Assembly (NCBI RefSeq): GCF_001545925.1
Contig: NZ_LMVQ01000002.1
Location: 1 to 46,197 of the forward strand
Length of the DNA stretch: 46,197 bases
Direction of reading: 5' to 3'
Source: Mycobacterium sp. NAZ190054
GTDB taxonomy: Bacteria > Actinomycetota > Actinomycetes > Mycobacteriales > Mycobacteriaceae
Positions within the stretch are counted from its first letter, which is position 1; the number at the start of each line of letters is the position of its first letter. The notes beneath the pieces are model-generated. The model saw only the letters and a program-made list of their open reading frames with translations, ran no database searches and was not told where the DNA came from. Shown one piece after another: positions 10,199 to 30,480 of the stretch. The position numbers and the translations under genes were made by a program.

Positions 10199-10210
10199 AT
10201 TAGGATACTT
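10199..10210. promoter_or_regulatory. Candidate operator 1 (island palindrome)
   Basis: ATTAGGATACTT, reading AAGTATCCTAAT on the strand of the TctC gene, lies 59 bases upstream of that start. It contains the core AGNATNCT shared by most of the seven island sites. Binding by the local GntR regulator is inferred. Confidence 0.5.
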
Positions 10211-10273
10211 TTTGGAGTCTAGGGTCTTGCGGCTGAGAGTCAATAGTTGACGGCAAATTGCCGGAAGTTGACC

Positions 10274-11614
10274 TCAGAGAAAGGAGCCGGAGATATAGCC
10301 GGAAATCAGCGCGACGGCCAACCCGCCCAGATAGCCGCCCCGTGGGCCGCCGTGCACACCGACGACGTCACCGGCCGCCAGTAGCCCGGGCAACGGTTGT
10401 CCGCCGCGGCCCAGCACTCGGCACCGAGCGTCCACCCGCACACCGCGCATCGTCGCGGTGATGCCTGGAAGCACCCGCATGGCATACCAACTAGACGAAT
10501 TCGATGCCCCGCCCGCCCAGGCTTCAACGGACCATTTCAATTGCGCTCGCGGAATCCGTAGCTGCACAGCGATATCGGTGATCGAAGCCGGACCAATGAC
10601 CTCGGCGCCCCGTTCGATCAACTCCGTCACGTCTCGCAGATGCCCGTCGGTCTGAGTCGCCCGCGGCGAGCCGTCACTGTCCCGCTCGGCGGACGCCTCC
10701 GCGTGCGTGCGGCTGTCGAACACCACCGCGAAGCCAGAAGGGTCACCGGTCCTCACCATCGCGTTGACCAGAGCGATGCCATTGTCGGCGTTCGGGGTGA
10801 AAGCATGCCCGTCCCGGTCGACCAGCAGACCGCGCCTGGCCACCGCGTCGACAGTCGGCTGGGGCCATAGTCGAGGCTCCCGGGCCGCGGTGGCCGACAG
10901 TAGATGACCGTAGACCGCCGAAGACGGTTCGGTCAGGGCGGCACCCGCGCTGATCAGCAGACGCAGACCTTCCCCGGCTGCCGATCGTGTGGACCGCAAG
11001 AAGACGTCGTCAGCGTGCGGGCCCACGAGGGAACGCATCATCTTCGAGTTGGCCTGGAAGCCGCCCGTAGCGACGGTGACAGAACGACCGATCAACTCCT
11101 CCCGGCCGGCAACGCCCACGTGCCATCCGTCGCGACGCTGCCACAGCGCGTTGGCCGACCCGGCAGTGAGTTGGACTCCGGCGGCGCGCGCCCGGTCTCG
11201 CAGGGTGGCCAACGCGATCTCTGCGCCGCGGTCGGGCTGGGCAGTCTCCCCGCGCGCCTCCAGCCAGGGTTGGCAGGTGAATCGGTCATGGGGCCGAGGA
11301 CCCTTGGGAGCCAGGTCGACGCCATGCCCGGCAAGCCATCGAATCGCCGGCCCACAGGACTTCGCCAGTCCGCGCGCCAGGTCAGGGTCGACCTCGCCGT
11401 CGGTCTGGTCGACCATTCGACGCACCAGTTCCTCGGGCGGCTCGTCCATGGCGCCCCACGCCAGATGGAAGACTCCACCCGAGATGCGGCTGTTGGCGCC
11501 GGAACCCTGGTCGGGGTCGGGATCGATCACCGCGACCGACCGGCCCGCTTCCCTGGCGCGCAGGGCAGCTGTCAGCCCGGCCAGGCCGCCGCCGAGGACG
11601 ACCGCATCAAACAC
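10274..11614 (-). CDS. FAD-dependent dehydrogenase (fumarate reductase/tricarballylate dehydrogenase-like flavoprotein)
   Basis: Protein of 446 residues. The N-terminal dinucleotide-binding motif VVLGGGLAGLTAALRAREAG (GxGxxG) is followed by an acidic residue pair at the end of strand 2. SRISGGVFHLAWG resembles the FAD-contact segment of the succinate dehydrogenase/fumarate reductase flavoprotein family, and GLLAAGDVVGVHGGPRGGYLGGLAVA near the C-terminus is the second FAD motif. The family includes TcuA (tricarballylate to cis-aconitate) and 3-ketosteroid delta-1-dehydrogenases. The short GTG start overlaps the prpF-like stop by eight bases, so it is the last gene of the five-gene minus operon starting at 15884. 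In this setting oxidation of a carboxylic acid or its CoA ester at a C-C bond is likely; the substrate is unknown. Confidence 0.82.
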   Translation of the reverse strand: MFDAVVLGGGLAGLTAALRAREAGRSVAVIDPDPDQGSGANSRISGGVFHLAWGAMDEPPEELVRRMVDQTDGEVDPDLARGLAKSCGPAIRWLAGHGVDLAPKGPRPHDRFTCQPWLEARGETAQPDRGAEIALATLRDRARAAGVQLTAGSANALWQRRDGWHVGVAGREELIGRSVTVATGGFQANSKMMRSLVGPHADDVFLRSTRSAAGEGLRLLISAGAALTEPSSAVYGHLLSATAAREPRLWPQPTVDAVARRGLLVDRDGHAFTPNADNGIALVNAMVRTGDPSGFAVVFDSRTHAEASAERDSDGSPRATQTDGHLRDVTELIERGAEVIGPASITDIAVQLRIPRAQLKWSVEAWAGGASNSSSWYAMRVLPGITATMRGVRVDARCRVLGRGGQPLPGLLAAGDVVGVHGGPRGGYLGGLAVALISGYISGSFL

Positions 11615-12734
11615 GAACGTAGACTTCGCCGGCCATCAGGCGGCGGGCGGTGCGGACCACGGCGACGGATTCGACCGACCCGTCCGCGCAGTGGCGCACT
11701 TCGGCCGCCGCCACACCCTTTGGGTGTCCCACTCGAACCCATGAGTCAGAACGCTCCCCGCGCATCCGGTTCGGCACCGTACCCGCTGTCACGCCGGCGA
11801 CTGCCGTGCATATCAGCCCGGTCAGGGGATGGGCGTGATGCATCCGTTGCAGCGAGAACACCCGAGCGACGAAATCGATCTCGCCGTCCGAGACCGCGGT
11901 GCCCTGCGTTGTCCGGTAGTCGGCGGCCCGCGAGATCACCGAGACCAGCGGCAGGATCGGAGACGCCATCGCCGCGACGGCGCCCGGCTCGATCAGGCCG
12001 AGGTGCAGCGCTCCCGCCGAACGCACCGCTTCGATCTTGCCCAGCAGCACATCGTCCGAGTTCACCTGCGCGGGAAGAACTGCGCCGTCCATCTCGAGGT
12101 AGGCGGCGTCGACGAACATCACCAGGTTGGCGGCATCGACGAAGGTCGCCTCCACGGCCCCGAACGGCGTCTCGACCACATCCACCGGATTCCCGGTGGG
12201 CAGCACGCCCTTGTCGCGGAACTTGCCCACCGGATCCAGGTACTCGTTGACGATCCTGGCACCCGGCCGTGGCACTCCGGCCACTTCCACGTCACCCTGT
12301 ACGGCGGCGCGTCCGCCCACCACCGGCACCGTCGCTCGGATGTTGGTGCGAGTGTTCTCGTTGTAGAGCACGAAGGTCGTCTCCGGCTCCGTGGCAGGCA
12401 CCAGGCCCTCGTCGACCACATAGGCGCAGACCGCCGACGTCAGGTTGCCGCTGTTGGGCTTCCAGTCCACCAGCGGATCCCGCACGGCCACCTGACCGAA
12501 GAGGAAATCCACGTCGACACCCGGTCGCTCGCTGCGCTTGACGGTGATGATCTTGCTCGTCGATGAGCTGCCACCACCCATGCCGTCGATCTGCCCGACG
12601 TCGGGGCTGCCCATGATCTCCAGCACGACGGCGTCGCGCTCGTCCCCCGGCGGCGGCAGGTCCTCATCGCGGACCATCAAGCCCTTGCTCGTCCCACCGC
12701 GCATCCACACGGCCGGTATACCTCGTTGCGGCAT
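11607..12734 (-). CDS. PrpF family isomerase/tautomerase
   Basis: Protein of 375 residues of the PrpF fold (diaminopimelate epimerase-like), a family with 2-methylaconitate isomerase, aconitate isomerase and 4-oxalomesaconate tautomerase. The family start is clear: IPAVWMRGGTSKGLMV, followed by GSPDVGQIDGMGGGSSSTSK and later KPNSGNLTSAVCAYV. All of these belong to the conserved PrpF substrate pocket, including the active-site lysine region. The start ATG 12734 follows the upstream stop by one base, and the end overlaps the FAD gene by eight bases, so translation is coupled. The presence of PrpF and PrpD-fold enzymes in one island points to an aconitate-like unsaturated tricarboxylate or a methyl-substituted analogue as an intermediate; this is inference. 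Confidence 0.85.
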   Translation of the reverse strand: MPQRGIPAVWMRGGTSKGLMVRDEDLPPPGDERDAVVLEIMGSPDVGQIDGMGGGSSSTSKIITVKRSERPGVDVDFLFGQVAVRDPLVDWKPNSGNLTSAVCAYVVDEGLVPATEPETTFVLYNENTRTNIRATVPVVGGRAAVQGDVEVAGVPRPGARIVNEYLDPVGKFRDKGVLPTGNPVDVVETPFGAVEATFVDAANLVMFVDAAYLEMDGAVLPAQVNSDDVLLGKIEAVRSAGALHLGLIEPGAVAAMASPILPLVSVISRAADYRTTQGTAVSDGEIDFVARVFSLQRMHHAHPLTGLICTAVAGVTAGTVPNRMRGERSDSWVRVGHPKGVAAAEVRHCADGSVESVAVVRTARRLMAGEVYVRV

Positions 12735-12735
12735 G

Positions 12736-14346
12736 CTATTTCACCTTGACAATCGCTTCACGTAATTCGTTCTTCTGGACTTTTCCGGTGGCGGTCCGCG
12801 GTAGCGCCTTCACCAGCCGCACCGACTCCGGCCAGTACTGACGCGCCATCCCGAGCGTGTCGAGGTGGCGGCGTAACGCCTCGATGCCGAACTCACGACC
12901 CGTTGCGGGCACCACCACCGCGCACGCACGCTCACCCAGTCGTTCGTCGGGAATGCCCACCACCGCGACATCGGCCACCGCGGGATGGGCGGATAACGCG
13001 TTCTCCACTTCCAGTACCGGGATGTTCTCACCGCCGCGGATGATCATGTCCTTCACCCGCCCGGCGATCCGCAGGTTCCCGTCCGCGCGGAGCTCGGCGA
13101 GATCGCCGGTGTCGAACCATCCTTCGGCGTCGAGTGCGGCCTCGTAGAGATCGTGTCGGGGGAAGTAGTCGACGCACTGCGACGCACTGCGTACCCACAA
13201 CTTGCCGACCGTGCCGGCCGGTTGCGGCCGGCACTGGGTATCGGTGACCTTGAGTTCCACCCAGGGCAGCGCCGAACCATCGGCCTGGTCGTTCCCGCCG
13301 CCGGGGCGGGTCATCGTGCAGACGCCGTTCTCGGTCATGCCCCACGCCATGGACACTTCCGCACCGAGTTCGGCCCGGACCCGGGTGCGCACCGTGTCCG
13401 GGACCGCTGCTCCCCCACTCTTGAACGCACGCAGCGAACTCACGTCCAGGTGCAACCGCTGCTGTGCATTGCAGAGGTCGATCATGAACGGGGTGGCACC
13501 GGAGGCGAAGGTGACACCGTGCTCGCCGATGAGGCGCAACGCAGAATCCGGGTCCCACTTGTCGAGATACACTGCCGTCATCCCCTCGGCCAGCGGCATC
13601 ACACACCCGCCGAGGAACGCCGTCTGGTGCGCCATCGTCGACGGAGTGAGAACCACGTCGCCAGAGTCGAGTTCGGCCGCGATGGCTGTCGCCCGATATG
13701 CGGCGAACAGCGTGTTGAAGGTGTGCACCACCCCCTTGGGCTCGCCGGTCGTTCCCGAGGTGAACTGCACCTGCGCGACGGAGGCCGGAGAGACGTAGTG
13801 ATCTCCCGCGATAACGTCGGACATCAGCTCGGGCTCGAATTCACACGGATCACCCTCGCGACCGACGCTGATCACCGGAATATTCAGCCCCATAGCGTCG
13901 TACATGGCCCGCAGCTCGAACCCGCCGATACGCGACGCCACCACACACAGGCTGCTGTCCACGGCGTGGATGGCGTGGGTGACCTCGCGCTCGCGGTGAA
14001 TCGGCAGGATCGGATGCACCACGGCGCCCAGCCGGGCACACGCGAAGACCAGCACCGCAAACTGCCAGCAGTTGGGCAGCTGAAACGACACCACCGAACC
14101 GGCCGTGACGCCGCGCGCCCGCAATCCGGCAACGCACCGGCTGACCCGCTCGGCGAGCTCACCGTAGCTGACGGCCACTGTCTGACCGGTGTCCACCTCG
14201 TGCGCCACCACCGCGATATGACCCGGCCGACGGGCAGCCCAGTCCCTGAAGTCGTCGCCATAGGTCCGATCGGCGCGCCACCACCCACGCTCCAGGTAGG
14301 TGGCGCACCGCTCCTGGTCGCCGACGGTGCGGACTTCGATGGCCAC
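12736..14346 (-). CDS. Acyl-CoA ligase (AMP-forming, cyclohexanecarboxyl-CoA ligase-like)
   Basis: Adenylate-forming enzyme of 536 residues. P-loop-like A3 motif VQFTSGTTGEPKGV at about residue 190, A5 motif SMAWGMTENG at about 335, A7 WFDTGDLAEL, A8 hinge AGRVKDMIIRGGENI, and the A10 catalytic lysine in PRTATGKVQK near the C-terminus. It activates a carboxylic acid to its CoA thioester via an acyl-adenylate. The neighbours are a BadH-like dehydrogenase and a BadK-like hydratase, so an alicyclic or branched acid is likely, comparable to AliA. The start GTG 14346 follows the upstream stop without a gap, and the stop TAG is one base before prpF. Confidence 0.88.
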   Translation of the reverse strand: MAIEVRTVGDQERCATYLERGWWRADRTYGDDFRDWAARRPGHIAVVAHEVDTGQTVAVSYGELAERVSRCVAGLRARGVTAGSVVSFQLPNCWQFAVLVFACARLGAVVHPILPIHREREVTHAIHAVDSSLCVVASRIGGFELRAMYDAMGLNIPVISVGREGDPCEFEPELMSDVIAGDHYVSPASVAQVQFTSGTTGEPKGVVHTFNTLFAAYRATAIAAELDSGDVVLTPSTMAHQTAFLGGCVMPLAEGMTAVYLDKWDPDSALRLIGEHGVTFASGATPFMIDLCNAQQRLHLDVSSLRAFKSGGAAVPDTVRTRVRAELGAEVSMAWGMTENGVCTMTRPGGGNDQADGSALPWVELKVTDTQCRPQPAGTVGKLWVRSASQCVDYFPRHDLYEAALDAEGWFDTGDLAELRADGNLRIAGRVKDMIIRGGENIPVLEVENALSAHPAVADVAVVGIPDERLGERACAVVVPATGREFGIEALRRHLDTLGMARQYWPESVRLVKALPRTATGKVQKNELREAIVKVK

Positions 14347-15099
14347 CTAGTCGACCATCGTCAGGCCGCCGCTGACGCTGAGCACCTGACCGGTGATGTA
14401 GGACGCGGCGTCGGACGCCAGATAGGCGACGGCAGCGGCGATTTCGGACGGGTCGGCCAACCGGCGAAACGGGATGGCCCTGATCAGCGCTTCCTGGATC
14501 TTCTCCGGTTGGTCATGGAACAGCGGGGTGTCGGTCGGTCCCGGGGACACGCAGTTGACGTTGATCTTGTGGCGCGCCATCTCGCGGGCGAACGCCTTGG
14601 AGAACGCGATCACTCCGCCCTTGGCGCCCGCGTAGACCGCCTCTCCCATGCTGCCGACGCGGCCCGCGTCACTGGCGACGTTGACGACGTGTCCCGGGGT
14701 TCCTGCATCGACGAGGTCGGGGACGAAAGTGCGGCACATGGCCAGCACACCGCCGTAGTTGATGTCGATGACCCGCTGCCAGAAGTCGGGCTCTGTGCCC
14801 AGGAACGGCTGTCCGATGTTCCAGCCAGCGTTGTTGACGATGACCGTCGGCACACCGTAGGCGGCGTGGATGTCGGTGCGCATGGCCCGCACCGATTCGA
14901 TGTCCGCGACGTCGGAGCGGAACGCGCCAGCGGTGCCGCCCTCCGCCTCGATCGTCGCGACGGTCTCCTTGGCGCGGCCTTCGTCGAGGTCGGCCACCGC
15001 AACGGTGGCGCCACCCGCGGCGAGTCGCCTGGCGATCGCCCGCCCGATGCCGGATCCGGCGCCCGTGACCACCGCGATTGTGCCGTCGAGTTCTGTCAT
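14347..15099 (-). CDS. SDR oxidoreductase, BadH-like (2-hydroxycyclohexanecarboxyl-CoA dehydrogenase type)
   Basis: Classical short-chain dehydrogenase of 250 residues. Cofactor motif VVTGAGSGIGRAIARRLA (TGxxxGIG), NNAGW, catalytic serine region VASDAGRVGSMGEAVYAGAKGG with YxxxK, and VSPGPTDTPLF. The segments NNAGWN, ASDAxRVGSxGEAVYA and the C-terminal ITGQVLSVSGGLTM resemble Rhodopseudomonas BadH strongly, by memory of that sequence. The likely reaction is NAD-dependent oxidation of a 3-hydroxyacyl-CoA (ring hydroxyl) to the 3-keto ester. Asp at the end of strand 2 (VADLDEG) favours NAD over NADP. It overlaps the hydratase gene upstream by four bases (ATGA). Confidence 0.87.
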   Translation of the reverse strand: MTELDGTIAVVTGAGSGIGRAIARRLAAGGATVAVADLDEGRAKETVATIEAEGGTAGAFRSDVADIESVRAMRTDIHAAYGVPTVIVNNAGWNIGQPFLGTEPDFWQRVIDINYGGVLAMCRTFVPDLVDAGTPGHVVNVASDAGRVGSMGEAVYAGAKGGVIAFSKAFAREMARHKINVNCVSPGPTDTPLFHDQPEKIQEALIRAIPFRRLADPSEIAAAVAYLASDAASYITGQVLSVSGGLTMVD

Positions 15100-15884
15100 G
15101 CCAATTCCTTTCGGGCCGAACTGCTCTTCTTTCTACTGCTGAGGAATTCGGTGAGGATGCCTGCCGTCTCCTGGTCGCCGTACAGCTCACGACTCGCAGC
15201 CAGTTCCTTGGCGTAGCCATCCGGGCTGGGCGCGTCGAGTAGACACTCCTTGGCCAGCGCCGTCGCTCGGGCGGGGCGGTGGGCGAGATCTCGGGCGAGA
15301 TCACCCGCGGCGGCGGGTGCGCCGTCCACGCAGAAGTCCGCCAAACCAATTCGGTCCGCCTCCGTCGCGTCGATCATGCGGCCGGTGAGGATGAGCTGCC
15401 GAGCCCTCGCTCGGCCGACCACGGCCGCCAGCCGCTGGGTGCCTCCTGCGCCCGGTACCAAACCCAGCATGGTCTCCGTGAGCCCCATCTTGGCCTCTGG
15501 GCCGGCAAGGCGGAAGTCACAGGCCAGGGCCAGTTCGAGGCCACCGCCTAGGGCGAGGCCCTCGATCACGGCGATCGTGCCGAACGGCGCTCGCTCCAAC
15601 TTGTCGAGGATGCGCTGGAAGCGACCGGCGAAAGCGACCATCTCGTCGACGCCGCCGTCGCGTTCGGTGGCGGCCTGGAGCATCGCGATGTCGGCGCCTG
15701 CCGAGAAGAACCTCGGATTGTCGGAACGAATCAGCAGGCAACGGGCACCGGAAGTCTGGCTGCACTCGATCGCCGACTCGAGCAGGTCGAGCATGTGGAG
15801 ATCGAACGCATTCACGGGTGGACGCCGCAGTCGGACGGTCGCCACCGCTTGCTCGCGGACTAGTTCAATCACAACCGGCTCCAT
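15096..15884 (-). CDS. Enoyl-CoA hydratase, BadK-like
   Basis: Crotonase of 262 residues. Both catalytic glutamates of true hydratases can be seen: in GGGLELALACDF and in LTETMLGLVPGAGGTQRL. The oxyanion segment is FSAGADI. It would add water to a 2-enoyl-CoA, possibly cyclohex-1-ene-carboxyl-CoA as BadK does. Start ATG 15884 (MEPVVIELV) is chosen because AGGAAAG lies just upstream; the frame is open for 20 more codons but those would cross the operator. It is the first gene of the operon hydratase, BadH-like SDR, CoA ligase, PrpF, FAD dehydrogenase. Candidate operator 2 (15900-15911) begins 16 bases upstream. Confidence 0.86.
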   Translation of the reverse strand: MEPVVIELVREQAVATVRLRRPPVNAFDLHMLDLLESAIECSQTSGARCLLIRSDNPRFFSAGADIAMLQAATERDGGVDEMVAFAGRFQRILDKLERAPFGTIAVIEGLALGGGLELALACDFRLAGPEAKMGLTETMLGLVPGAGGTQRLAAVVGRARARQLILTGRMIDATEADRIGLADFCVDGAPAAAGDLARDLAHRPARATALAKECLLDAPSPDGYAKELAASRELYGDQETAGILTEFLSSRKKSSSARKELA

Positions 15885-15899
15885 CTCTTTCCTGATAAA

Positions 15900-15911
15900 A
15901 AGTATCCTACA
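15900..15911. promoter_or_regulatory. Candidate operator 2 (divergent hydratase operon / MFS promoter)
   Basis: AAGTATCCTACA in the 75-base gap between the hydratase operon (minus) and the MFS gene (plus). The core AGTATCCT is identical to sites 1 and 3. Position suggests control of both directions. Confidence 0.5.
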
Positions 15912-15959
15912 TATACCTATTGTTGTAGCGGAAGGGCATGCCATGCCGCAAGGTCACCG

Positions 15960-17135
15960 ATGAGCAGCCGACCCTCCCCGATCGTCGCCATGGTCGCCCT
16001 CACCATCGCCGCCTCGGCGGTGGGCGCACTGCCCCTCAATCTCGTCGGTGCCCTCGGCTTCCGTATCGAGGAAGACCTTGCGCTGTCTGCGGCGGGCATC
16101 GGGGTTGCGGTCGCGACGTTCCGTCTGGTGCAGGGTGTTTCGGCATATCGGCTGGGCGGTACCGTCGATGTTCTGGGAGCGCGGCGCGCGCTGTGTGTTG
16201 CCACCGCGCTCACCGTCGTCTGTTCACTGGTGATCACGTTCGGCGCCCGGTCCCTTGCGGTATTGATGCTCGCCATGGCCGTCGGCGGCATTGGCAAGTC
16301 GCTGATGCAGCCGGCGAGCAACCGCATGGTGGTCACCGAGGCTCGCGACGACCAATACGGCATTGTGATCGGCTTCAAACAGGCCGCCGCTCCTCTGTCG
16401 ACGTTGCTCGCGGGACTGGCCGTGCCACTGATCGCGATGACGTTCGGCTGGCGATGGGCATTCGCCGTCACCGCCGTACTGGCCACGTTGTGCTGCGTGC
16501 TGGTCCTGCGCTTCATGACCGAGGAGCGATCGGGGAAGGCGAAAGCGGCCAAGAAGGAGCGGCCACCCCGTGACGAGTTGAAACTGCTGGCGCTCATCGG
16601 AATCGCGATGGCGTTCGCCAACGCCACCAACTCGATCATTCCCGCCTTCTGGGTGTTGGGCGAAACCCGGGCGGGCGCCGACCCCGCCCAGGCGGGAGTG
16701 GTGCTGGCAGCGGCCAGCGCCCTTGCCATCGTGGTGCGCGTCGTCAGTGGCATCGCCTGCGATCGGCTGCCGGGAGATCCGATGTTCTTATGCGCGGCGA
16801 TGCTCTTCATCGGTGCGATCGGTATCAGCACGTTGGCATTCGTCGATTTGAACACCGTCCGTAGCGTCGGGTTGGTCGTTGGTTACGCCGGGGTGTGGGG
16901 CTATCCGGCAGTGCTGTGGTATGCCCTGCTCCGTCGGTTCCATCGCACGCCTGGATACGTCACCGGACAGGTCACCATCTATTCCTTGGTGGGCGGTTCG
17001 TTCGGGCCGGTCGCCTTCGGCGTGGTGGCCGACGCCACCTCCTACGGAGTGGGATGGATTCTCACTGCGTCCCTGGCTGTCGCCGCAGCGACGATCATGG
17101 CCCTGTCTGCTTCTCGGATGCGCAGCTCCAGCTGA
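15960..17135 (+). CDS. MFS transporter
   Basis: Membrane protein of 391 residues with about twelve hydrophobic segments in two halves, separated by the charged loop RFMTEERSGKAKAAKKERPPRDE around residues 180-203. A conserved MFS loop 2-3 element can be seen in YRLGGTVDVLGARRAL (GxxxDxxGxRR). The size and layout fit a carboxylate or drug:proton antiporter or symporter. Start ATG 15960 has AAGG about ten bases upstream. It is divergent from the hydratase operon and shares operator 2 with it, so it probably takes up or exports a pathway compound. Substrate not recognisable. Confidence 0.8.
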   Translation: MSSRPSPIVAMVALTIAASAVGALPLNLVGALGFRIEEDLALSAAGIGVAVATFRLVQGVSAYRLGGTVDVLGARRALCVATALTVVCSLVITFGARSLAVLMLAMAVGGIGKSLMQPASNRMVVTEARDDQYGIVIGFKQAAAPLSTLLAGLAVPLIAMTFGWRWAFAVTAVLATLCCVLVLRFMTEERSGKAKAAKKERPPRDELKLLALIGIAMAFANATNSIIPAFWVLGETRAGADPAQAGVVLAAASALAIVVRVVSGIACDRLPGDPMFLCAAMLFIGAIGISTLAFVDLNTVRSVGLVVGYAGVWGYPAVLWYALLRRFHRTPGYVTGQVTIYSLVGGSFGPVAFGVVADATSYGVGWILTASLAVAAATIMALSASRMRSSS

Positions 17136-17190: not shown

Positions 17191-18402
17191 CTAGTCCACG
17201 ATCTCGTAGACCGCGGCCAGACCTTGACCGCCACCGATGCACATCGTCTGCAAGCCGTACCGCGAGCGGCGACGCCGCATTTCGCGGGCAAGCGTGGCGA
17301 GCATGCGTCCGCCCGTGGCGCCGATCGGGTGACCGAGTGAAATCCCGGATCCGTGGACGTTGGTGCGCTCGCGGTCTGCGGATGTGAACCCCCACTCGCG
17401 CATGACCGCCAGGGCCTGCGCGGCGAACGCCTCGTTGAGCTCGATCAGATCCATGTCGGCGAGCGTGAGACCCGCCTTGCCCAGGGCGGCCGCGGAGGCC
17501 GGCACCGGACCGATGCCCAGCGTTTCCGGTGGCACACCGGCGACTGCCCAGGACACGAGCCGCACCAGCGGCGCCAACCCGAGCCGCGCCGCCTTCTCCG
17601 GAGTCGTCACAATGCACATCGACGCGGCGTCGTTCTGGCCACTCGAGTTTCCCGCGGTCACCGTCGCGTCCGGATCTTCGCTCCACATAATCGGTTTCAG
17701 ACGGGCGAGTGATTCCATCGTGGTGTCGGGACGCGGATGTTCGTCGGTGTCGATCACGTCATCGCCGCTGCGCGAACGGACGACGACGGGAACGATCTCC
17801 TCGGCCAGGACGCCGTTCTTCTGCGCCGCGAGAGCACGCCGATGTGATTCGACGGCCAGCTCGTCCTGTTCGGTGCGGGTGATCCCGTATCGGCGCCGCA
17901 GGTTCTCCGCGGTCTCCAGCATTCCGCCGGGTACCGGATGGTGCCGACCACCTGCAGTGACGCGGCCGCGGGTCAGTCCGTCGTGCACGGTGATCCCAAT
18001 TTGTGCGCCGCCCCACCGCATATCGGTGGAGTAGAAGGCGACGTTGCTCATACTCTCCACCCCACCGGCGATCACCAGATCGTCACCACCGCTGCCCACC
18101 TGCAGTGCTGCCTGAATGATGGCCTGCAAACCGGAGCCGCAGCGGCGGTCGACCTGCATACCCGGGACAGTCACCGGAAGACCCGCGTCGAGGGCCACGA
18201 CTCGACCGATCGCGGGCGCCTCGCCGCTCGGGTAGCTGTGCCCGAGCACGACATCGTCGATGGCATCGGGCGCGACACCGGTGCGCTCCAGCATGCCGCG
18301 TAGCACCGTGACGCCTAACTCCACGGCCGATATCGACTTGAACATGCCGCCGTACCGACCGATGGGCGTCCGGACCGGCTCGGCGATCACCACCTCACGC
18401 AA
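17191..18402 (-). CDS. Thiolase (acetyl-CoA C-acyltransferase)
   Basis: Thiolase-family enzyme of 403 residues. Nucleophilic cysteine C88 in VDRRCGSGLQA, the active-site histidine H358 in GHPIGATGG, and the second cysteine C388 in CIGGGQG are all present; NEAFAAQALAV is also typical. It would cleave a 3-ketoacyl-CoA with CoA, completing the beta-oxidation steps encoded at 12736-15884. Start: a TTG at 18400-18402 is preferred because a full AGGAGG lies eight bases upstream (18411-18416 on this strand) and family similarity starts there (REVVIAEPVRTPIGR). The in-frame ATG at 18456 has no ribosome-binding site and would add 18 unusual residues. It is convergent with the MFS gene. Confidence 0.87.
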   Translation of the reverse strand: MREVVIAEPVRTPIGRYGGMFKSISAVELGVTVLRGMLERTGVAPDAIDDVVLGHSYPSGEAPAIGRVVALDAGLPVTVPGMQVDRRCGSGLQAIIQAALQVGSGGDDLVIAGGVESMSNVAFYSTDMRWGGAQIGITVHDGLTRGRVTAGGRHHPVPGGMLETAENLRRRYGITRTEQDELAVESHRRALAAQKNGVLAEEIVPVVVRSRSGDDVIDTDEHPRPDTTMESLARLKPIMWSEDPDATVTAGNSSGQNDAASMCIVTTPEKAARLGLAPLVRLVSWAVAGVPPETLGIGPVPASAAALGKAGLTLADMDLIELNEAFAAQALAVMREWGFTSADRERTNVHGSGISLGHPIGATGGRMLATLAREMRRRRSRYGLQTMCIGGGQGLAAVYEIVD

Positions 18403-22891: not shown

Positions 22892-23992
22892 ATGCCCACG
22901 AACCGAACTCTGCTCGCCGCGGCCGCGGTGGCGATGCTGACACTGTCCGCGTGTAGCGACGGGAGCAGTGGCGGCGCTGCCGATGAAGCCTTCTACGCCG
23001 GCGAGACCATCGAGCTAATCGCACCGGTGTCCCCCGGCGGATCCGTCGACGGCGTGGCCCGCCTGTTCGCCAAGAAGCTGTCCGAACACCTCGAAGGCAA
23101 CCCGACGGTCCAGGTGGTCAACATCGACGGCGGCGGTGGAATTCTGGCCGGCAACGAGTTCGCCAACAAGTACCGGCCCGACGGCAAGACGCTGATGCTG
23201 ATGACGCAGGTCTCCGTCCTGCCGGAAATCCTCGGCATGGACGCGGTCCAGTACGATCTGGCCAACATGACGGCGGTGTGGGCGGCAAACCGCGGTCAAG
23301 CGGTCATGATGGCCAACACCAGCACCGGAATCACCGATGTCAAGCAATTGGCCGATGCGCCAGGCAAACTCACCATGGGCACCATCTCCCCGGCCGGCGC
23401 GGACCTCCCGTCGGTGGTCAGTCTGGAAGTGCTCGGGCTGCTCAACAACAAGGTCGAGGTCATCAGCGGATACGAGAACGGCGACGCGGTGCGCAATGCA
23501 TTCATGGCCGGGGAGCTCGATATCCACTTCGACCGATCGTCCGGCTATGTCAAAGAATTTCAAGGCACCTATCCGGCCATCTTCACCTACGGCGAGACCG
23601 ACGGGCAGGGCAACGTCACTCGCGACCAGGTGGTACCGGACGCTCCCGACGTCGGCGAGGCGTACCGCACCCTCTTCGGAAAGGAACCGTCCGGCGAAGC
23701 GTGGGACGCCTACGTCATGCTGCTGAACATCCTGGGCCGCGGCGGCTACTCGCTACAGACCCACAAGGAGGCCCCTCAGGAAGCCGTTCAGGCGCTTGAT
23801 GCCGGGATCGCCGGCGTCGTCGCCGACGCGGAATTCACCGAGGCACTCAAGGGTTTCATGGGACCGTTCCCGAACGAGATCACCGGCGACGAAGCCAAGC
23901 AATGGGGGGAAAGCGCCTCCGACGTCGACCCCGAGTCGTTGCAGTGGGTGCAGAACTTCCTGTCCACCAACTTCGACATGAAGTTCAACTGA
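22892..23992 (+). CDS. TTT substrate-binding lipoprotein, TctC/Bug family (system B)
   Basis: Extracytoplasmic receptor of 366 residues. Signal sequence MPTNRTLLAAAAVAMLTL with lipobox LSAC and the acylated cysteine at residue 21. Mature Bug-type start ETIELIAPVSPGGSVDGVARL and VVNIDGGGGILAGNEF. It is clearly different from the paralogs at 9049 and 30576 and lacks their GEGEAEGVR motif, so it probably binds another ligand. Start ATG 22892 with GAGGAG at 22882-22887; an earlier in-frame ATG (22856) would place extra residues before the signal. It is followed 14 bases later by an SDR gene and is probably the receptor for the TctA/TctB pair at 18744-20749. Confidence 0.85.
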   Translation: MPTNRTLLAAAAVAMLTLSACSDGSSGGAADEAFYAGETIELIAPVSPGGSVDGVARLFAKKLSEHLEGNPTVQVVNIDGGGGILAGNEFANKYRPDGKTLMLMTQVSVLPEILGMDAVQYDLANMTAVWAANRGQAVMMANTSTGITDVKQLADAPGKLTMGTISPAGADLPSVVSLEVLGLLNNKVEVISGYENGDAVRNAFMAGELDIHFDRSSGYVKEFQGTYPAIFTYGETDGQGNVTRDQVVPDAPDVGEAYRTLFGKEPSGEAWDAYVMLLNILGRGGYSLQTHKEAPQEAVQALDAGIAGVVADAEFTEALKGFMGPFPNEITGDEAKQWGESASDVDPESLQWVQNFLSTNFDMKFN

Positions 23993-24006
23993 GAGGACGT
24001 GGTCTC

Positions 24007-24762
24007 ATGACACCCACACCGGTGGCGGTGGTGACCGGGGCCGCGCGCGGAATCGGCGCGGCGATCGCGTTGCGGCTCGCCCAGGACGGCCACGCCGTCG
24101 CTCTTCTGGACCGCGACGCCGGGTCGTGTGACGATGTCGCCGACAAGGTGCGTGCCACGGGCGTCGCAGCAGTCGCTGTGGCAGCAGATGTGTCCGACGA
24201 GGTTTCGGTCTCGGCGGCGGTGGACGCCATCGCCGAAGAACTCGGTTCGCCGACCGTACTGGTGAACAATGCCGGCATCCTGCGAGACAACCTTCTGTTC
24301 CGGATGTCCTCCGACGACTGGGACGCGGTGTCCGGGGTACATCTGCGGGGTTCCTTCCTGATGACCAGGGCCGTCCAGCCATACATGCGCGAAGCGGGCT
24401 TCGGCCGGATCGTCTGCCTGTCGTCGACGTCGGCGCTCGGCAACCGCGGCCAGGCCAACTACGCGGCGGCCAAGGCAGGCTTACAAGGCTTCGTGAAGAC
24501 CCTGGCGCTCGAGTTGGGGCCTTCGGGTGTCACCGCAAACGCGGTGGCGCCCGGGTTCATCGTCACCGACATGACGCGGGCTACAGCCGAGCGCCTCGGC
24601 CAGCCGTTCGAAGAGTTCGAACGGGCGAAGACGGCCGCCATACCGGTGCGCCGGGGGGGCACGCCGGAGGACGTCGCACACACGGTCAGTTTCCTGGTCG
24701 ACCAGCGGTCGGGCTTCGTCAACGGTCAGGTGATCTACGTGGCCGGCGGACCGCGTTGTTGA
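24007..24762 (+). CDS. SDR oxidoreductase (3-oxoacyl reductase / 3-hydroxyacyl-CoA dehydrogenase-like)
   Basis: Classical SDR of 251 residues. TGAARGIGAAIALRLA cofactor motif, LLDRD at the end of strand 2 (NAD preference likely), NNAGI, catalytic SSTSALGNRGQANYAAAKAG (Ser, Tyr, Lys), APGFIVTDM. FabG-like overall. Start ATG 24007, 14 bases after the TctC stop, with GAGAGG upstream. The partner gene and the island content suggest oxidation of a hydroxy acid or hydroxyacyl-CoA from the acid imported by system B. The fabG name is not used because acyl-carrier-protein chemistry is unlikely in this context. Confidence 0.82.
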   Translation: MTPTPVAVVTGAARGIGAAIALRLAQDGHAVALLDRDAGSCDDVADKVRATGVAAVAVAADVSDEVSVSAAVDAIAEELGSPTVLVNNAGILRDNLLFRMSSDDWDAVSGVHLRGSFLMTRAVQPYMREAGFGRIVCLSSTSALGNRGQANYAAAKAGLQGFVKTLALELGPSGVTANAVAPGFIVTDMTRATAERLGQPFEEFERAKTAAIPVRRGGTPEDVAHTVSFLVDQRSGFVNGQVIYVAGGPRC

Positions 24763-24826: not shown

Positions 24827-25983
<1,157 letters not shown>

Positions 25984-25987
<4 letters not shown>

Positions 25988-26811
25988 CGACCCTCCCACT
26001 GCGGTGTCTCCTTGGCGTTGAAGGCACGGTGGAACTCGGCGTGATCCTTGGTGGTCATCAGTAGCGCCTGGGTCATCGCGTCGAGCTCCATCGCAGAGGC
26101 GATCGGCATGTCGAGCTCACGGGTAATCAACGACTTCGTCTGCGAATAGGCCAGATACGGGCCCGTGGCCAAGCGCTGAGCCAGAGCGGAGACCTCATTG
26201 TCGAGATCTTCCGGTTCGACGAGCTTGGACACAAGGCCGTAGCTCTGCGCGGTGGCCGCGTCAATGGTGTCGCCGAGCATCAGCAGTTCGGTCGCGCGGG
26301 TGTAACCGATGGCGCGCGGCAGCAGGTAGGCCGCGCCCATGTCACCACCGGACAGTCCCACCTTTGTGAATAGGAACGCGAATTTGGCCTTGGGCGTGCA
26401 TATCCTGAAGTCCGATGCCAACGCCACGACCGAACCGGCGCCGGCGGCGATTCCCTGCACCGCGGAGATGATGGGCAGCGGACATTCCCGCATGGCACGA
26501 ATCGCATCGCCGGTCATCTTCGTGAAGCCCATCAGATCCCGCGCGTCCATTTTGATCAGCTCGCCGATGATCTCGTTGACGTCACCGCCACCGCAGAAGC
26601 CCTTGCCCTCGCCCTTGATCACGAGCACCCGGGCGCCCTCCATGTGCGGCAGCTGACCCAGAAGGTCCCGCAGGTCGGCGTAGCTCTCGAAGGTGAGCGG
26701 ATTCATCTTCTCGGGCCGATTCAGGGTCACGGTGGCGACGCCGTCCTCGAGCGCAAACTTGAAGTGTTGCCACTTCTGGGTGATGTCCGCTGATGCACGG
26801 TACCGCATCAT
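25984..26811 (-). CDS. Crotonase superfamily protein without hydratase glutamates
   Basis: Protein of 275 residues, crotonase fold: FCGGGDVNEII (oxyanion region), GIAAGAGSVVALASDFRICT and the element GLSGGDMGAAYLLPRAIG. By eye, the two glutamates of enoyl-CoA hydratases are replaced (by Val and Lys), while an aspartate (SGGDMG) stands where isomerases of the PaaG/ECI type have their catalytic Asp (as in PDSGGTWLLPR). An isomerase or other crotonase reaction is therefore more likely than hydration. It is coupled to both neighbours by four-base overlaps (26808-26811 and 25984-25987). Start ATG 26811 or 26808. Confidence 0.78.
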
Positions 26812-27998
26812 GCACTTCCCTCTCTTCCGGTGATATTCGTATCTGCTTTGGCACGTTGGGTTTTGACGAGATGACGACCGATGATGGTGCGCTGCACTTC
26901 GGAGGCGCCCTCGTAGATCCGGGGTGCCCGGACATCTCGGTACAGCTGCTCCAGGAGGTGGCCGCGTTGCAGGGCCCGGGCACCGTGGAGTTGCACCGCG
27001 CGGTCGACCACGTACTGCGCGGACTCCGTGGCCTGCAACTTCGCCATGGCCGCCAGGTAGGAGATCTCCTGCGCGGGACGGCCGCAGTCGTAGGCGGTGG
27101 CCGCCGCGTAGACCATCAGGCGGGCACCGGCGGTTCTGGTCGCCATACCCGCGAGCTGGTGCTGCACACTGGGCTGATCGGCCAGGTACGCACCGTAGAT
27201 CTCACGTTCCGTCGCCCACCCCACCGTCGCATCGAGAGCGGCGGAAGCCATGCCCACCGCGAATGCTCCGACGCTGGGCCGGAATAGGTCTAGCGTGCGC
27301 ATGGCCACCTTGAACCCTTCTCCCGGTGCTCCGATCATGTCATCGTCGGTCACGCGCACGCCGTGGAAACTCAGTTCACCGAGGGCGTGGTCGGAGATCA
27401 TGTCGAGAGGCCGCCCGCTCAGTCCATCGACATCGCCGGGTACCGCGAACGCCGACACTCCCTTCGCCCCCTCACCGCCGGTGCGGGCGAAGACGGTGTA
27501 GAAGTCGGCATCCGGGGCATTCGAGATCCACGTCTTGGACCCGTGCAGCCGCCATGCACCGGGGCCGTCGACGTCGGCTGACAGGGCCAGGCGAGCGGCG
27601 TCCGACCCGGCGCCGGACTCCGACAACGCGAATGCGGCGACGACTTCACCCGAGACCACGCCCGGCATCCACCGCTCGATGGTTCCGGGCTTGCCCGACT
27701 GCAGGATCGGATAACTGCCCAGGCCCTGCAGTGCCAGCGCGGTCTCGGCATGCGTGTCGACGCGCGCGAGCGTCTCACGCAACAGGCAAAGCTGCATGGC
27801 GGCTGCGCCCTGCAATGGCTCGTCGGGGGTGCCTCCGAAGAGCGCGCGCAGCAGCCCTGTGTCGCCCAGTGACCGGACCAGATTGCGGTCGACACGCCCA
27901 GTTGCTGCCTCGACGCCGTGCCGCAGCTTGTGGCGGGCGATGTCGTCGACCCGCGCAACGAAAGCAAGCTGCTCCGGCGTCAGCGCGAACTGTTGCAT
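26808..27998 (-). CDS. Acyl-CoA dehydrogenase
   Basis: Flavoprotein of 396 residues. FALSESGAGSDAA and GSKTWISNAPD are the FAD/substrate motifs; the C-terminal IYEGASEVQRTIIGRHLV carries the probable catalytic Glu/FAD-binding segment. It differs from the GCDH-like paralog of the same operon: the R-x-x-x-SVQ element is replaced by ARVDTHAETALALQG. It would introduce the 2,3 double bond in the activated acid, comparable to AliB. Start ATG 27998 is favoured by GGAGGA eight bases upstream over an in-frame start at 28013. First gene of the minus operon, directly next to operator 7. Confidence 0.85.
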   Translation of the reverse strand: MQQFALTPEQLAFVARVDDIARHKLRHGVEAATGRVDRNLVRSLGDTGLLRALFGGTPDEPLQGAAAMQLCLLRETLARVDTHAETALALQGLGSYPILQSGKPGTIERWMPGVVSGEVVAAFALSESGAGSDAARLALSADVDGPGAWRLHGSKTWISNAPDADFYTVFARTGGEGAKGVSAFAVPGDVDGLSGRPLDMISDHALGELSFHGVRVTDDDMIGAPGEGFKVAMRTLDLFRPSVGAFAVGMASAALDATVGWATEREIYGAYLADQPSVQHQLAGMATRTAGARLMVYAAATAYDCGRPAQEISYLAAMAKLQATESAQYVVDRAVQLHGARALQRGHLLEQLYRDVRAPRIYEGASEVQRTIIGRHLVKTQRAKADTNITGREGSA

Positions 27999-28043
27999 TG
28001 AGTGGTCCTCCAAACGCAGGCATTCCGTTATGCCAACCGTTTT

Positions 28044-28063
28044 AGCATAATAAGTATGCTAAT
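28044..28063. promoter_or_regulatory. Candidate operator 7 (divergent acyl-CoA dehydrogenase / crotonase promoter)
   Basis: TTAGCATA and TATGCTAA form a perfect 8-bp inverted repeat with spacer ATAAG (28042-28062). It contains AAGTATGCTAAT (28052-28063), which matches the island consensus AAGTATNCTAAT. The site lies in the 111-base divergent promoter between the operon at 27998 (minus) and the gene at 28110 (plus), 44 bases from the former start. Confidence 0.5.
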
Positions 28064-28109
28064 ACTACCGTTAGCGGTACTAGCTGCGGGAATGACAGAA
28101 GGGAGCGTC

Positions 28110-28865
28110 ATGAACGACGTGCGGATTGACGTGCGGGACGGAATCGCCACGCTGACCTTGAATGCGCCCCGGCGGCTCAATGCGATCACGCCCGAGATGG
28201 CTGACGACATCGCCGAACACTGCCGCGCAGTCGAGGCCGATCCCGACATCGCGGCCCTGGTGGTGTGCGGGGCGGGCGACTCGTTCTGCTCGGGCGCCGA
28301 CCTGTCCAGCCTCGGCGAGGTGTCGGAAGATCCGTTGCGCGACGACAACTTCGACGCGATCGAACGGATCTACCGCGCGTTCCTCGCCGTGGAGGAACTC
28401 GATGTTCTGACCGTGACCGCGGTGAAGGGAGCCGCGGTGGGCGCAGGCCTCAACTTGGTGCTCGCGACCGACATCCGCATCGTCGCCCATGACGCGCGGC
28501 TAATGTCCGGCTTCGTGAAAAAGGGCCTGCATCCTGGCGGCGGGCACTTCGACCTGTTGGCGCGGTCGTCGTCACCTCAGGTTGCGTGCGCGCTGGGGCT
28601 GGCGGGACAGCGGATCAACGGCGATGACGCGGTGCGCCTCGGCCTGGCCTGGGAAGCCACCGGCGCCGGCAGCGTGGACGCGCGCGCCAGGGAGGTAGCC
28701 GTGGGAGTCGCCGCAAATCCCGCCGTGGCACGGGCGGCCAAACGCTCGATCCGGCTGTCGGTCACCGAGCGCGCCACCCGGCGGGCGGCGGTGCAGATCG
28801 AGCGGGTGCAGCAACTGCGCACCGTGCGGCGGGTCGGCTCGGCAGTCACCGGGCGCGCCGAGTGA
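28110..28865 (+). CDS. Crotonase superfamily protein (enoyl-CoA hydratase-like)
   Basis: Protein of 251 residues, crotonase fold, FCSGADLSSLG oxyanion segment and GAAVGAGLNLVLATDIRI. Both hydratase glutamate positions are changed by eye alignment (Asn and Phe); the stretch KKGLHPGGGHFDLL replaces the usual PGAGGTQRL. The HPGGGH form is known to me from several mycobacterial Ech proteins of unproven activity. Start ATG 28110 is chosen for GAAGGGAG at 28098-28105; the frame is open further upstream but crosses the operator. Stop TGA five bases before the end of the convergent GntR gene. Confidence 0.78.
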   Translation: MNDVRIDVRDGIATLTLNAPRRLNAITPEMADDIAEHCRAVEADPDIAALVVCGAGDSFCSGADLSSLGEVSEDPLRDDNFDAIERIYRAFLAVEELDVLTVTAVKGAAVGAGLNLVLATDIRIVAHDARLMSGFVKKGLHPGGGHFDLLARSSSPQVACALGLAGQRINGDDAVRLGLAWEATGAGSVDARAREVAVGVAANPAVARAAKRSIRLSVTERATRRAAVQIERVQQLRTVRRVGSAVTGRAE

Positions 28866-28870: not shown

Positions 28871-29623
28871 CTACTCCCCGTAGTGCGTTTGCCGGAGATA
28901 GCCCACCCAGCGGTCGCGTGGGAGGATCGGCCCCTCGAGCCGGCCGGCCTGATTCATCACCTTCTCGAACGCCTCGATGTGCTTGAGCATCACCGACGCC
29001 GCGGTGTCACCATCGCCGGCCATGATGGCAGCGGCGATCTTGGCGTGGGCCCTGCCCGCGGCCTTCACACCCTCGGTGGGGATGTCGTCGACGCGCGTCT
29101 GCCACCCGACGACGCGATTGATCGCCGACATGATGGTGCGCAGAACATCGTTTTCGACGCAGTCGACCAGCAGGTCGTGGAAGGCGGAGTCGCCGGCGGA
29201 ATCGTCCTCGGCGAACTCGATCAGCTTCTGCTTCTGCTCATCGGTGGCGTCGTGGGCCGCGGCCGCGGCGACCGCGGGCTCGATGAGCTTGCGGAATTCG
29301 AAGATGCTGCGCAACGGCGTGCCGCCGACCGTCAGCAGCGTCGCCAGCGACCGGCTCACCACGTCGATCTCGGGGTGGCTGACCATGATCCCGCCGCGCG
29401 GGCCACGCCGGATCTCGATGAAGCCGTCGGCTTCCAGAAGCCGCAGCGCCTCACGTACGGTGCCGCGGCTCAAGCCGAACATTTGGATCAGCTCGGGCTC
29501 GGACGGCAGCGAGTCGCCCGGCTCGAGGTGCTGTTCGAGGATCTGGGCGCGCAGTTCATTGGCCAGGGCTCCAGATGCTTTGGGCAGCCTGATCTGGCGC
29601 GGACCCGAACGGTTGACCGCCAT
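28871..29623 (-). CDS. GntR-family regulator, FadR/FCD subfamily
   Basis: Transcription factor of 250 residues. N-terminal winged helix: LANELRAQILEQHLEPGDSLPSE, then SRGTVREALRLLEADGFIEIRRGPRGG, the GntR signature. C-terminal FCD ligand-binding domain from about residue 90: IFEFRKLIEPAVAAAAA, GDSAFHDLLVDCVEN, and AHAKIAAAIMAGDGDTAASVMLKHIE, with the Asp/His residues that bind metal and a carboxylate effector in this family. Start ATG 29623 (MAVNRSG); GGGAGGGG lies 12 bases upstream, a little far. It is the only regulator inside the island and is divergent from the SDR gene, with operator 5 between them. I infer autoregulation and control of the other sites, released by a pathway acid or its CoA ester. 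Confidence 0.88.
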   Translation of the reverse strand: MAVNRSGPRQIRLPKASGALANELRAQILEQHLEPGDSLPSEPELIQMFGLSRGTVREALRLLEADGFIEIRRGPRGGIMVSHPEIDVVSRSLATLLTVGGTPLRSIFEFRKLIEPAVAAAAAHDATDEQKQKLIEFAEDDSAGDSAFHDLLVDCVENDVLRTIMSAINRVVGWQTRVDDIPTEGVKAAGRAHAKIAAAIMAGDGDTAASVMLKHIEAFEKVMNQAGRLEGPILPRDRWVGYLRQTHYGE

Positions 29624-29666
29624 TGCTGAAGTACACCCCTCCCAGCTGGCCAGCACTCATAATAAT

Positions 29667-29678
29667 CAGAATCCTAAG
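29667..29678. promoter_or_regulatory. Candidate operator 5 (GntR / SDR divergent promoter)
   Basis: CAGAATCCTAAG, preceded by ATAAT, in the 66-base gap between the GntR gene and the SDR gene. Core AGAATCCT fits AGNATNCT. A probable autoregulatory site. Confidence 0.45.
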
Positions 29679-29689
29679 GAGCCTAATTG

Positions 29690-30454
29690 ATGTCCGCTGC
29701 ATCTACCCGTAAGGCCGTCGTCACCGGGGCGGGCACGGGCATCGGGCACGCCACCGCGTCGAGTCTGGTGGACCAGGGTTACGACGTCGTTCTGGTAGGG
29801 CGCCGCGAGCAGCCCCTACGTCGCGCCCGCGCACGGATGACCCGGCCGGCCGCCGCATCGGTCCACCTCTGCGACGTCACCGAGGAGGCGGCGGTCACGG
29901 CGCTGTTCGAGGCGATCGGACCGGTCGACGCGCTGGTGTGCAACGCGGGCACGGCCATGTCGGCCCCATTCGGCCGCACCGGCCTGGACCAGGTGAACGA
30001 AGCCTTCACCGTCAACGCCGTCGGGACGTTCCTGTGTCTGCGCGCCGCCTTGCCGGGAATGAAGGAGCGCCGGTGGGGCCGCGCCGTGGTGGTGTCGTCG
30101 ATCTCCGGTGTGGTCGGCGCACCGTACATCGCCGCGTACACGGCGTCGAAGCACGCGGCCATCGGTTTCGTCCGTGCCGCGGCTGCCGAGATGGCCGGCA
30201 CCGGCGTCACGGTGAACGCCGTGTGCCCCACCTACGTGCGCACGCCGATGACCGAGCGAACCATCGAGCAGATCTCGGCCAAGACGGGTCGCGATGAGAG
30301 TGAAGCGGCCGCGGCACTGGGCGCCGGGTCTCCGCTCGGGAGGCTGCTGGAACCACAGGAGGTGGCGCACGCCGTGAGCTTCCTGTGCTCCGATCTGGCC
30401 GGCGGTATCAGCGGACAAGCCCTGGTCATGGACGGCGGCGGCGTTCAGCACTGA
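29690..30454 (+). CDS. SDR oxidoreductase
   Basis: Classical SDR of 254 residues. VVTGAGTGIGHATASSL, LVGRREQPLRRAR (basic residues after strand 2 suggest NADP), CNAGTAMS, catalytic SSISGVVGAPYIAAYTASKHA (Ser, Tyr, Lys) and CPTYVRTPMTE. The TSKHA and CPTYVRTP elements resemble 3-hydroxybutyrate dehydrogenases and 3-hydroxyacyl-CoA dehydrogenases. Start ATG 29690 with AAGGAG at 29675-29680. It is alone between the GntR promoter and operator 4, and probably serves the pathway as a hydroxyacid or hydroxyacyl-CoA dehydrogenase. Confidence 0.82.
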   Translation: MSAASTRKAVVTGAGTGIGHATASSLVDQGYDVVLVGRREQPLRRARARMTRPAAASVHLCDVTEEAAVTALFEAIGPVDALVCNAGTAMSAPFGRTGLDQVNEAFTVNAVGTFLCLRAALPGMKERRWGRAVVVSSISGVVGAPYIAAYTASKHAAIGFVRAAAAEMAGTGVTVNAVCPTYVRTPMTERTIEQISAKTGRDESEAAAALGAGSPLGRLLEPQEVAHAVSFLCSDLAGGISGQALVMDGGGVQH

Positions 30455-30468
30455 ACCCCGAAGTGCAA

Positions 30469-30480
30469 TTAGGATAATAA
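30469..30480. promoter_or_regulatory. Candidate operator 4 (TctC, system C)
   Basis: ATTAGGATAATA, followed by ATTAA. It lies 96 bases upstream of the TctC gene of system C. It matches the left half of the consensus exactly (ATTAGGATA) and the right half less well. Confidence 0.42.

Follow-up and report, generated by a model that had tools for sequence, protein, structure and literature searches.

Are the three tripartite tricarboxylate transporters and the acyl-CoA breakdown genes of a mycobacterial genomic island controlled as one unit, and if so, by which protein? The question is raised by contig NZ_LMVQ01000002.1 (C2; 46,197 bp, the whole of which is the window analyzed here) of the draft genome of Mycobacterium sp. 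NAZ190054 (6,094,859 bases, 6.09 Mb), in which a first-pass annotation of the sequence had picked out seven A/T-rich palindromes and assigned them to a single regulon under the island's GntR protein. Our analysis supports that proposal. The seven sites appear to be copies of one operator, and the island FadR-type GntR protein probably binds them all, thereby controlling the entire island with its own gene included; the support comes from 14 relatives that have a perfect form of the palindrome in their own gntR promoters and from the scarcity of the motif.

The seven sites and their placement

All seven quoted site strings are present in the window and six of the starts given for them are right, while ATTAGGATAATA starts at 30468 and not at 30469. 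The sites had also been said to lie in promoter regions, and this holds: each of the seven promoter-type gaps of the island (divergent, or co-directional and longer than 100 bp, with start codons chosen by us) has a site with 2–4 mismatches to the 12-mer dyad TTAGTATACTAA, and none of the four other island gaps longer than 50 bp (two convergent ones, and a co-directional one each of 94 bp and 96 bp) has one, their best TTAGTATACTAA matches having 5–8 mismatches. The GC content of the gaps is 47–62%, and that of the window is 67%.

The first predicted operator (10198–10213; dyad 10200–10211, 3 mismatches to TTAGTATACTAA) lies upstream of the minus strand genes tctC1-tctAB1-mmgE1. The second (15897–15912; dyad 15899–15910, 4 mismatches) is between the minus strand enoyl-CoA hydratase/SDR/CoA-ligase/prpF/FAD-dehydrogenase operon and the plus strand MFS gene, and the third (20787–20802; dyad 20789–20800, 4 mismatches) is between tctA2-tctB2-thiolase on the minus strand and, on the plus strand, a gene without a Pfam match and an isocitrate dehydrogenase gene. 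Upstream of tctC2-SDR (plus strand) there is an operator at 22842–22857 (dyad 22844–22855, 3 mismatches) with a 4-mismatch neighbor at 22853. The gap between the acyl-CoA dehydrogenase operon (minus strand) and an enoyl-CoA hydratase gene (plus strand) has an operator array at 28042–28064, whose two dyads (28042–28053 and 28051–28062, 2 mismatches each) are 9 bp apart. A second array, at 29657–29686, occupies the gap between gntR (minus strand) and an SDR gene (plus strand); its best dyad is 29666–29677 (3 mismatches), with neighbors at 29657 (5 mismatches) and 29675 (4 mismatches) in 9-bp steps. The last operator (30467–30482; dyad 30469–30480, 2 mismatches) is upstream of the plus strand genes tctC3-tctA3-mmgE2-amidohydrolase. 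An inverted repeat, GTATCAG-N7-CTGATAC, is found around the tctC2 site as well (22832–22852), and it is unchanged in Mycobacterium sp. PS03-16 (see below).

Fit of the palindrome compared with chance

None of the seven sites is a perfect copy of the 16-bp pattern AATNAGNATNCTNATT, from which they depart, in the order of their positions, by 2, 3, 2, 3, 1, 2 and 1 mismatches. At ≤3 mismatches the window has nine AATNAGNATNCTNATT places where 1.88 are expected, a count reached in 0 of 100 shuffles; of the two additional places, 26369 and 29673, the second overlaps the site at 29664. The genome has 18 such places at ≤2 mismatches, five of them in the window (Poisson P 7e-8), and 148 at ≤3 mismatches, nine of them in the window (Poisson P 2e-6); the pattern read backwards has 67 at ≤3 mismatches. 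The 8-bp core AGNATNCT, which the first-pass annotation had placed at the center of the palindrome, was dropped as a stand-alone motif because it is not significant (seven window places versus 2.9 expected, with 6 of 100 shuffles reaching seven), and two of its seven places (2806 and 34381) fall away from the sites. The AAT/ATT outer arms of the palindrome are weak. Since the core is not significant by itself, the case rests on the longer dyad and its placement, and since AATNAGNATNCTNATT was derived from these very sites, a leave-one-out matrix and the TTAGTATACTAA dyad of the relatives are the fairer tests. When a matrix built from six sites is used to find the seventh, the omitted sites rank 6, 7, 7, 6, 6, 10 and 1 among 46,182 window positions.

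The best TTAGTATACTAA matches in the seven promoter gaps (3, 4, 4, 3, 2, 3 and 2 mismatches in window order) sum to 21 mismatches, compared with 35.6 (standard deviation 2.0, minimum 29) when each gap is shuffled with its dinucleotides preserved, and 0 of 1500 shuffles reach 21. Among 60 palindromes made from the reordered half-site letters the real one comes first, with five of the seven gaps matched at ≤3 mismatches; the next has four and 42 have none. The real dyad likewise ranks first by gap matches among 384 palindromes with one G/C per half. Just four TTAGTATACTAA places at ≤2 mismatches occur in the genome, three of them inside the 46-kb window (the overlapping places 28042 and 28051 being counted separately), and at ≤3 mismatches there are 38, six of them in the window, where the motif read backwards has 127. 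The motif is therefore not equally common elsewhere: its genomic places are scarce and most of the outside ones that were inspected overlap open reading frames (ORFs), with 13 of 15 overlapping an ORF of at least 100 aa in some frame and two being free. A second genomic cluster, on contig C48 and with the only perfect 16-mer (at 10063), was considered and rejected; it lies at the 3′ end of ORF 10061–11515 in a stretch of 51–56% GC.

The palindrome in the promoters of related gntR genes

Relatives of the island GntR protein were sought in 396 genomes of the genus, where 75 (its own included) matched at E ≤1e-24, and 34 fetched relative loci (L001–L035, without L013) were scanned. A perfect TTAGTATACTAA adjoins the relative's own gntR gene in 14 of them (L003 and L020–L032; 136–164 bits, 38–43% identity), and these make up 14 of the 16 relatives in the 136–190 bit range. 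The dyad is therefore tied to this branch of GntR proteins independently of the island. In 13 of the 14 a perfect 16-mer, ACTTAGTATACTAAGT, lies between the gntR start and the divergent start, and in all 14 the dyad is separated from each of the two start codons by between a few and about 20 bases; the bases that flank it vary and the dyad itself is constant. In a search of 21 genomes, a single perfect TTAGTATACTAA place was present in every one of the 14, and three of these have one more at 1 mismatch; the other seven of the 21, including the genome of the window, have no TTAGTATACTAA at ≤1 mismatch. The divergent gene belongs to the RPE65 family in 13 of the 14 (for example, at the dyad L047:10138–10149), and in L026 the first divergent open frame (226 aa) has no family match. 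We thus predict from these comparisons that the relatives' GntR protein and TTAGTATACTAA form a second regulator-operator pair, which these 14 genomes share.

Half-site boxes in 9-bp steps

Most of the island sites extend as half-site boxes at a 9-bp phase, a feature that the first-pass annotation had overlooked. In five of the seven gaps the second-best TTAGTATACTAA match lies exactly 9 bp from the best, and in the 30455–30575 gap the 9-bp neighbor ranks third. When only bases outside the central 12-mer are scored and the flanks are shuffled within 12 bp, offset +9 has 34 of 63 matches where 17.5 are expected (z 4.7, 0 of 4000 shuffles) and offset −9 has 30 of 63 where 17.4 are expected (z 3.7, P 0.0003); none of the other offsets from 4 to 9 rises above z 1.6. 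These two are the top offsets in all three shuffles (offsets 4–9, 4–12 and 4–18). In the wider shuffles offset −12 is also up (z 2.6 and 3.3), perhaps owing to a 3-bp periodicity within the motif. The repeat unit is CTNAG-NATN, and the ideal array is CTNAG-NATN-CTNAG-NATN-CTNAG; the relatives' operator consists of two boxes, cTTAG-TATA-CTAAg, with no third (3–5 of 9 outside matches).

The GntR protein and comparison with known systems

The gntR gene (28871–29623, minus strand) encodes a FadR-type protein, a GntR winged helix-turn-helix joined to an FCD domain, of 250 aa from the ATG at 29623; an alternative GTG at 29656 adds 11 aa, and the 250-aa start is also the one predicted for a metagenome relative of 94% identity. 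The N-terminal winged helix matches PF00392 at 64.6 bits (cut-off 27) and the C-terminal domain matches PF07729 at 63.6 bits (cut-off 24.3). The metal site of FCD domains is formed by one Asp and three His. In the island protein D145, H149, H193 and H215 align with a D and three H of LldR (2di3) and NanR, the histidines of NanR belonging to its zinc site, and on this alignment they are a candidate metal site. The statement that this is the only regulator in the island is true for the island ORFs scanned, but the window itself has a TetR-family regulator gene outside the island block (43600–44517, near aldehyde and alcohol dehydrogenase genes). No ortholog was found outside the genus in samples of 397 genomes of the order (E ≤1e-34) and 394 of the class (E ≤1e-33), the sole match other than its own being the same genome of the same genus each time; weaker GntR relatives include ones named Pseudonocardia, Nocardioides and others, and there are protein relatives (P0003–P0013) of 55–83% identity.

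Within the FadR/FCD subfamily the island protein is like LldR and PdhR in its two domains, in the four candidate metal residues (as in LldR) and, judged by site placement, in its autoregulation, and it reaches no NCBIfam equivalog cut-off (LldR 69.5 versus 311 bits; PdhR 67.9 versus 330). The two-base spacing of GT and AC in the relatives' TTAGTATACTAA is that of the 2-nt class in a comparative survey of GntR-family sites (PMC4494728). The common box given there is TKGT/ACMA with GT and AC 2–3 nt apart, however, and the relatives' TAGT-AT-ACTA has an A before GT; most island sites pair a GT half with a GG/CC half, and the island sites are more degenerate than those of the relatives.

The best NCBIfam model for the island protein is NanR, at 92 bits, with the cut-off of 260 not reached. 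Three dimers of Escherichia coli NanR are reported to bind a (GGTATA)3 operator cooperatively, with a 32-residue N-terminal extension mediating the cooperativity (PMC8012715). The island half-sites are likewise repeated in close fixed steps, but the boxes are CTNAG/GTAT with NATN spacers instead of GGTATA direct repeats, and they also form dyads; furthermore, the island protein has no 32-residue extension, its GntR domain starting at about residue 19 of 250 aa (30 of the 261-aa reading). Additional half-sites 7–12 nt from the center are noted for GntR-family sites in the same survey (PMC4494728), from which the island ones differ in being phased at 9 bp and, at 28042/28051, in equaling the main site in strength. 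Palindromes upstream of FadR-type gntR genes are also reported in M. smegmatis (PMC2018728), although the dyad AGTATACT is not among the entries of Table 3 of that paper that were compared. No report of this operator or island system was found among the papers listed, as judged by titles and the starts of abstracts, and the string TTAGTATACTAA itself led only to frog and Borrelia phage papers, by title.

Mobility and conservation of the island

The island block (5402–38187) has a counterpart in Mycobacterium sp. PS03-16 (G066), described as a stone-surface isolate (PMC8928780), which is 95.1% identical and collinear over 5402–36479 and then continues in pieces (84–92%) to 38187. The patchiest stretch between the two copies, 36480–37115 (84–87% in pieces), contains most of ORF 36528–37055, which has no Pfam match. 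The flanks of the window match PS03-16 contig C9, 971–4552 at C9:20802–24317 (75%) and 38555–42559 at C9:16525–20575 (79%), on the same strand and 226 bp apart with no island between them; the PS03-16 island copy is on a different contig. The PS03-16 flanks are joined without the island, and the island lies elsewhere at far higher identity than the flanks; it has therefore moved between species, in one or both lineages. Neither of two plasmid searches gave a record covering 80% of the query, and the window has no tRNA gene, at the island edges or anywhere else.

The two island copies differ at 3 of 119 site positions and at 8 of 127 positions in the flanking 9 bp. For the remaining gap sequence the figure is 49 of 512 (P 0.009 for site positions versus this remainder), and for all other positions of 5402–36431 it is 1459 of 30,283. 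The two copies are close, so this conservation of the sites is modest evidence.

A model of control and its alternatives

In the model that we favor one GntR dimer would bind each pair of boxes, with neighboring dimers adding to the binding, and the bound protein would cover the start regions and keep the island operons low. A carboxylate or acyl-CoA from the island pathway, held at the candidate FCD metal site (D145, H149, H193 and H215), would loosen the grip of GntR, and its release would jointly switch on the MFS gene, the genes for acyl-CoA breakdown and all three tripartite tricarboxylate transporters. The 10198 site lies directly downstream of a promoter-like pair, TTGACT-N16-TAGACT, at the expected start point of tctC1, and therefore suits repression.

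Several observations weigh against this model and against a regulon confined to the island. The closest relatives outside the two island copies (L002, L015, L016 and L017; 48–49% identity) have no TTAGTATACTAA at ≤3 mismatches in their own promoters, and in the three 48% relatives compared the winged helix is 66–68% identical to that of the island protein, versus 48–56% for the fourteen, with the recognition helix also nearer. The only place at ≤3 mismatches in the 16–19 kb around three 48% relatives is L044:17513. An A/T-rich sequence 5′ of gntR, TCAKTATSATYT, is common to L002, L015 and L017, but it fits one half of the dyad only. Of the more distant relatives, L018 (43%) has no site, L019 (43%) has just a 3-mismatch place, and 12 loci of weaker relatives (L004–L012 and L033–L035) have no perfect copy. 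Within the island, the 10200 site lacks an array (5 of 12 at +9 and likewise at −9), and the 29666 site is the weakest, since in the leave-one-out test 13 places of a 131-kb background, largely chosen for motif resemblance, score equally high. The 30467 site lies upstream of the best −35/−10-like pair, TTGACC-N18-TAACAT. The genome has 34 other matches to the island GntR protein at E ≤1e-3, so a regulator from outside the island remains a rival. Finally, two places outside the island precede AMP-binding CoA-ligase ORFs, by 40 bp (L072:3870; G000:C1:70869) and by 57 bp (L068:7612; G000:C25:9111, which overlaps the end of an ORF lacking a Pfam match and also an opposite ORF, the latter only in the part that precedes its domain matches). 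These may be further targets, and the regulon is therefore possibly wider than the island.

The 48% relatives were rejected as a source of the operator, having no TTAGTATACTAA match and a TCAKTATSATYT that fits one half only; their operator may have drifted. Proteins up to 60–70% identical can bind distinct motifs according to the survey cited above (PMC4494728), which allows for the missing dyad without explaining it. L017 has two copies of TCAKTATSATYT at a distance of 17 bp. In favor of the model, two further tctA loci in the genome of the window, both outside the island (L088, G000:C31; L089, G000:C190), have no match better than 4 mismatches within 7–8 kb.

How else might the sites be explained? 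They could be nothing but promoter elements rich in A/T, with −10 hexamers (TAGGAT, TAGTAT and TATCCT among them) that are alike by chance in a high-GC genome. Of the 11 gene starts examined, 9 do have the loose pattern TANNNT no more than 140 bp away, in many cases within a site; the gaps are A/T-richer than the window, and AGNATNCT alone could be matched by shuffling. Chance resemblance is nevertheless very improbable in our judgment, given that gap shuffles preserving A/T content never reach the observed fit (0 of 1500), other palindromes of the same letters fit the gaps less well, the 6.09 Mb genome has so few TTAGTATACTAA places at ≤2 mismatches, and fourteen related genomes retain the perfect dyad, once each. 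Real operators with a different reader, either another GntR protein of the genome or the TetR protein at 43600–44517, would be in keeping with the 34 further GntR matches and with the presence of a TetR gene in the window. But one of the sites is in the promoter of the island gntR gene, the same dyad is in the gntR promoters of 14 relatives, and gntR and all the sites were inherited together in both island copies, with the TetR gene outside the shared block; we regard a different reader as improbable.

The island GntR protein might also bind the sites and mainly activate, needing its ligand to recruit RNA polymerase. The position of the tctC3 site, upstream of its best −35/−10-like pair, agrees with this, as does a report on Ms0535, a mycobacterial FadR-type GntR protein presented as an activator (PMC4609117). 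The tctC1 site, by contrast, immediately follows a good pair and falls on the expected start, the dyad of the 14 relatives is close to both start codons, and NanR, whose operator layout comes nearest among FCD regulators, acts as a repressor according to the account cited above (PMC8012715). Activation has, in our view, a small chance of being the main mode. Returning to repression by the GntR protein, we tentatively extend it, as a possibility that we hold to be less likely than not: the island may be a transferable, self-contained regulon, in which the 9-bp half-site arrays would seat several dimers of its own GntR side by side, in a NanR-like mode with a different box and without the NanR extension, so that three tripartite transporters and a breakdown pathway would be switched sharply together, the regulator travelling along.

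Island genes and the likely pathway

On the minus strand at 5462–10143, mmgE1 (5462–6853; Pfam MmgE/PrpD), tctAB1 (6948–9032; TctA 419.6 bits, and a TctB match of 27.8 bits, just below the 29.1 cut-off) and tctC1 (9049–10143) form a likely operon. This is followed on the same strand by a second likely operon (10274–15884) of enoyl-CoA hydratase, SDR, CoA ligase, PrpF and TcuA-like FAD dehydrogenase genes, and then by the plus strand MFS transporter gene (15960–17135; Pfam MFS_1 118.3 bits). A third likely minus strand operon (17191–20749) contains tctA2, tctB2, a small ORF without a Pfam match and a thiolase gene. The gene without a Pfam match and the NADP isocitrate dehydrogenase gene, the latter exceeding its NCBIfam cut-off, are at 20882–22755 (plus strand), and tctC2 and an SDR gene are at 22892–24762 (plus strand). 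Neither tctC1 nor tctC2 has a Pfam match of its own, and they are so named because of their similarity to tctC3, 38% identity for the former and 28% across about 210 residues (E 6e-16) for the latter.

The likely minus strand operon at 24827–28013 has an acyl-CoA dehydrogenase, an enoyl-CoA hydratase and another acyl-CoA dehydrogenase gene, and it is followed on the plus strand by the enoyl-CoA hydratase family gene (28110–28865). Beyond gntR the divergent SDR gene (29690–30454, plus strand) precedes a plus strand series at 30576–38182, comprising tctC3, tctA3, mmgE2 and an amidohydrolase gene and, after a 96-bp gap (36432–36527), an ORF without a Pfam match and a phosphotriesterase-family gene. 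Taken together, three tctA genes, PrpF, two MmgE/PrpD proteins, a TcuA-like dehydrogenase, isocitrate dehydrogenase, CoA ligase, acyl-CoA dehydrogenases, hydratases and thiolase suggest, from gene content, the uptake and breakdown of a chain- or ring-bearing polycarboxylic acid.

Significance

Control of the island would be a fresh instance of an ordinary type of bacterial gene control. To our knowledge, few regulators of tripartite tricarboxylate transporters are known in this group, and there is now a concrete operator and a regulator candidate for a mobile mycobacterial island with three of them. The pathway is also made testable, as a ligand that frees GntR from the sites would point to the substrate of the island. 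With the 9-bp phased boxes, the role of extra GntR half-sites, an open question in the survey of GntR-family sites (PMC4494728), becomes directly testable as well. Beyond the island, a second predicted operator-regulator pair is gained; of the 14 other genomes of this genus that have it, 13 carry it beside an RPE65-family gene.

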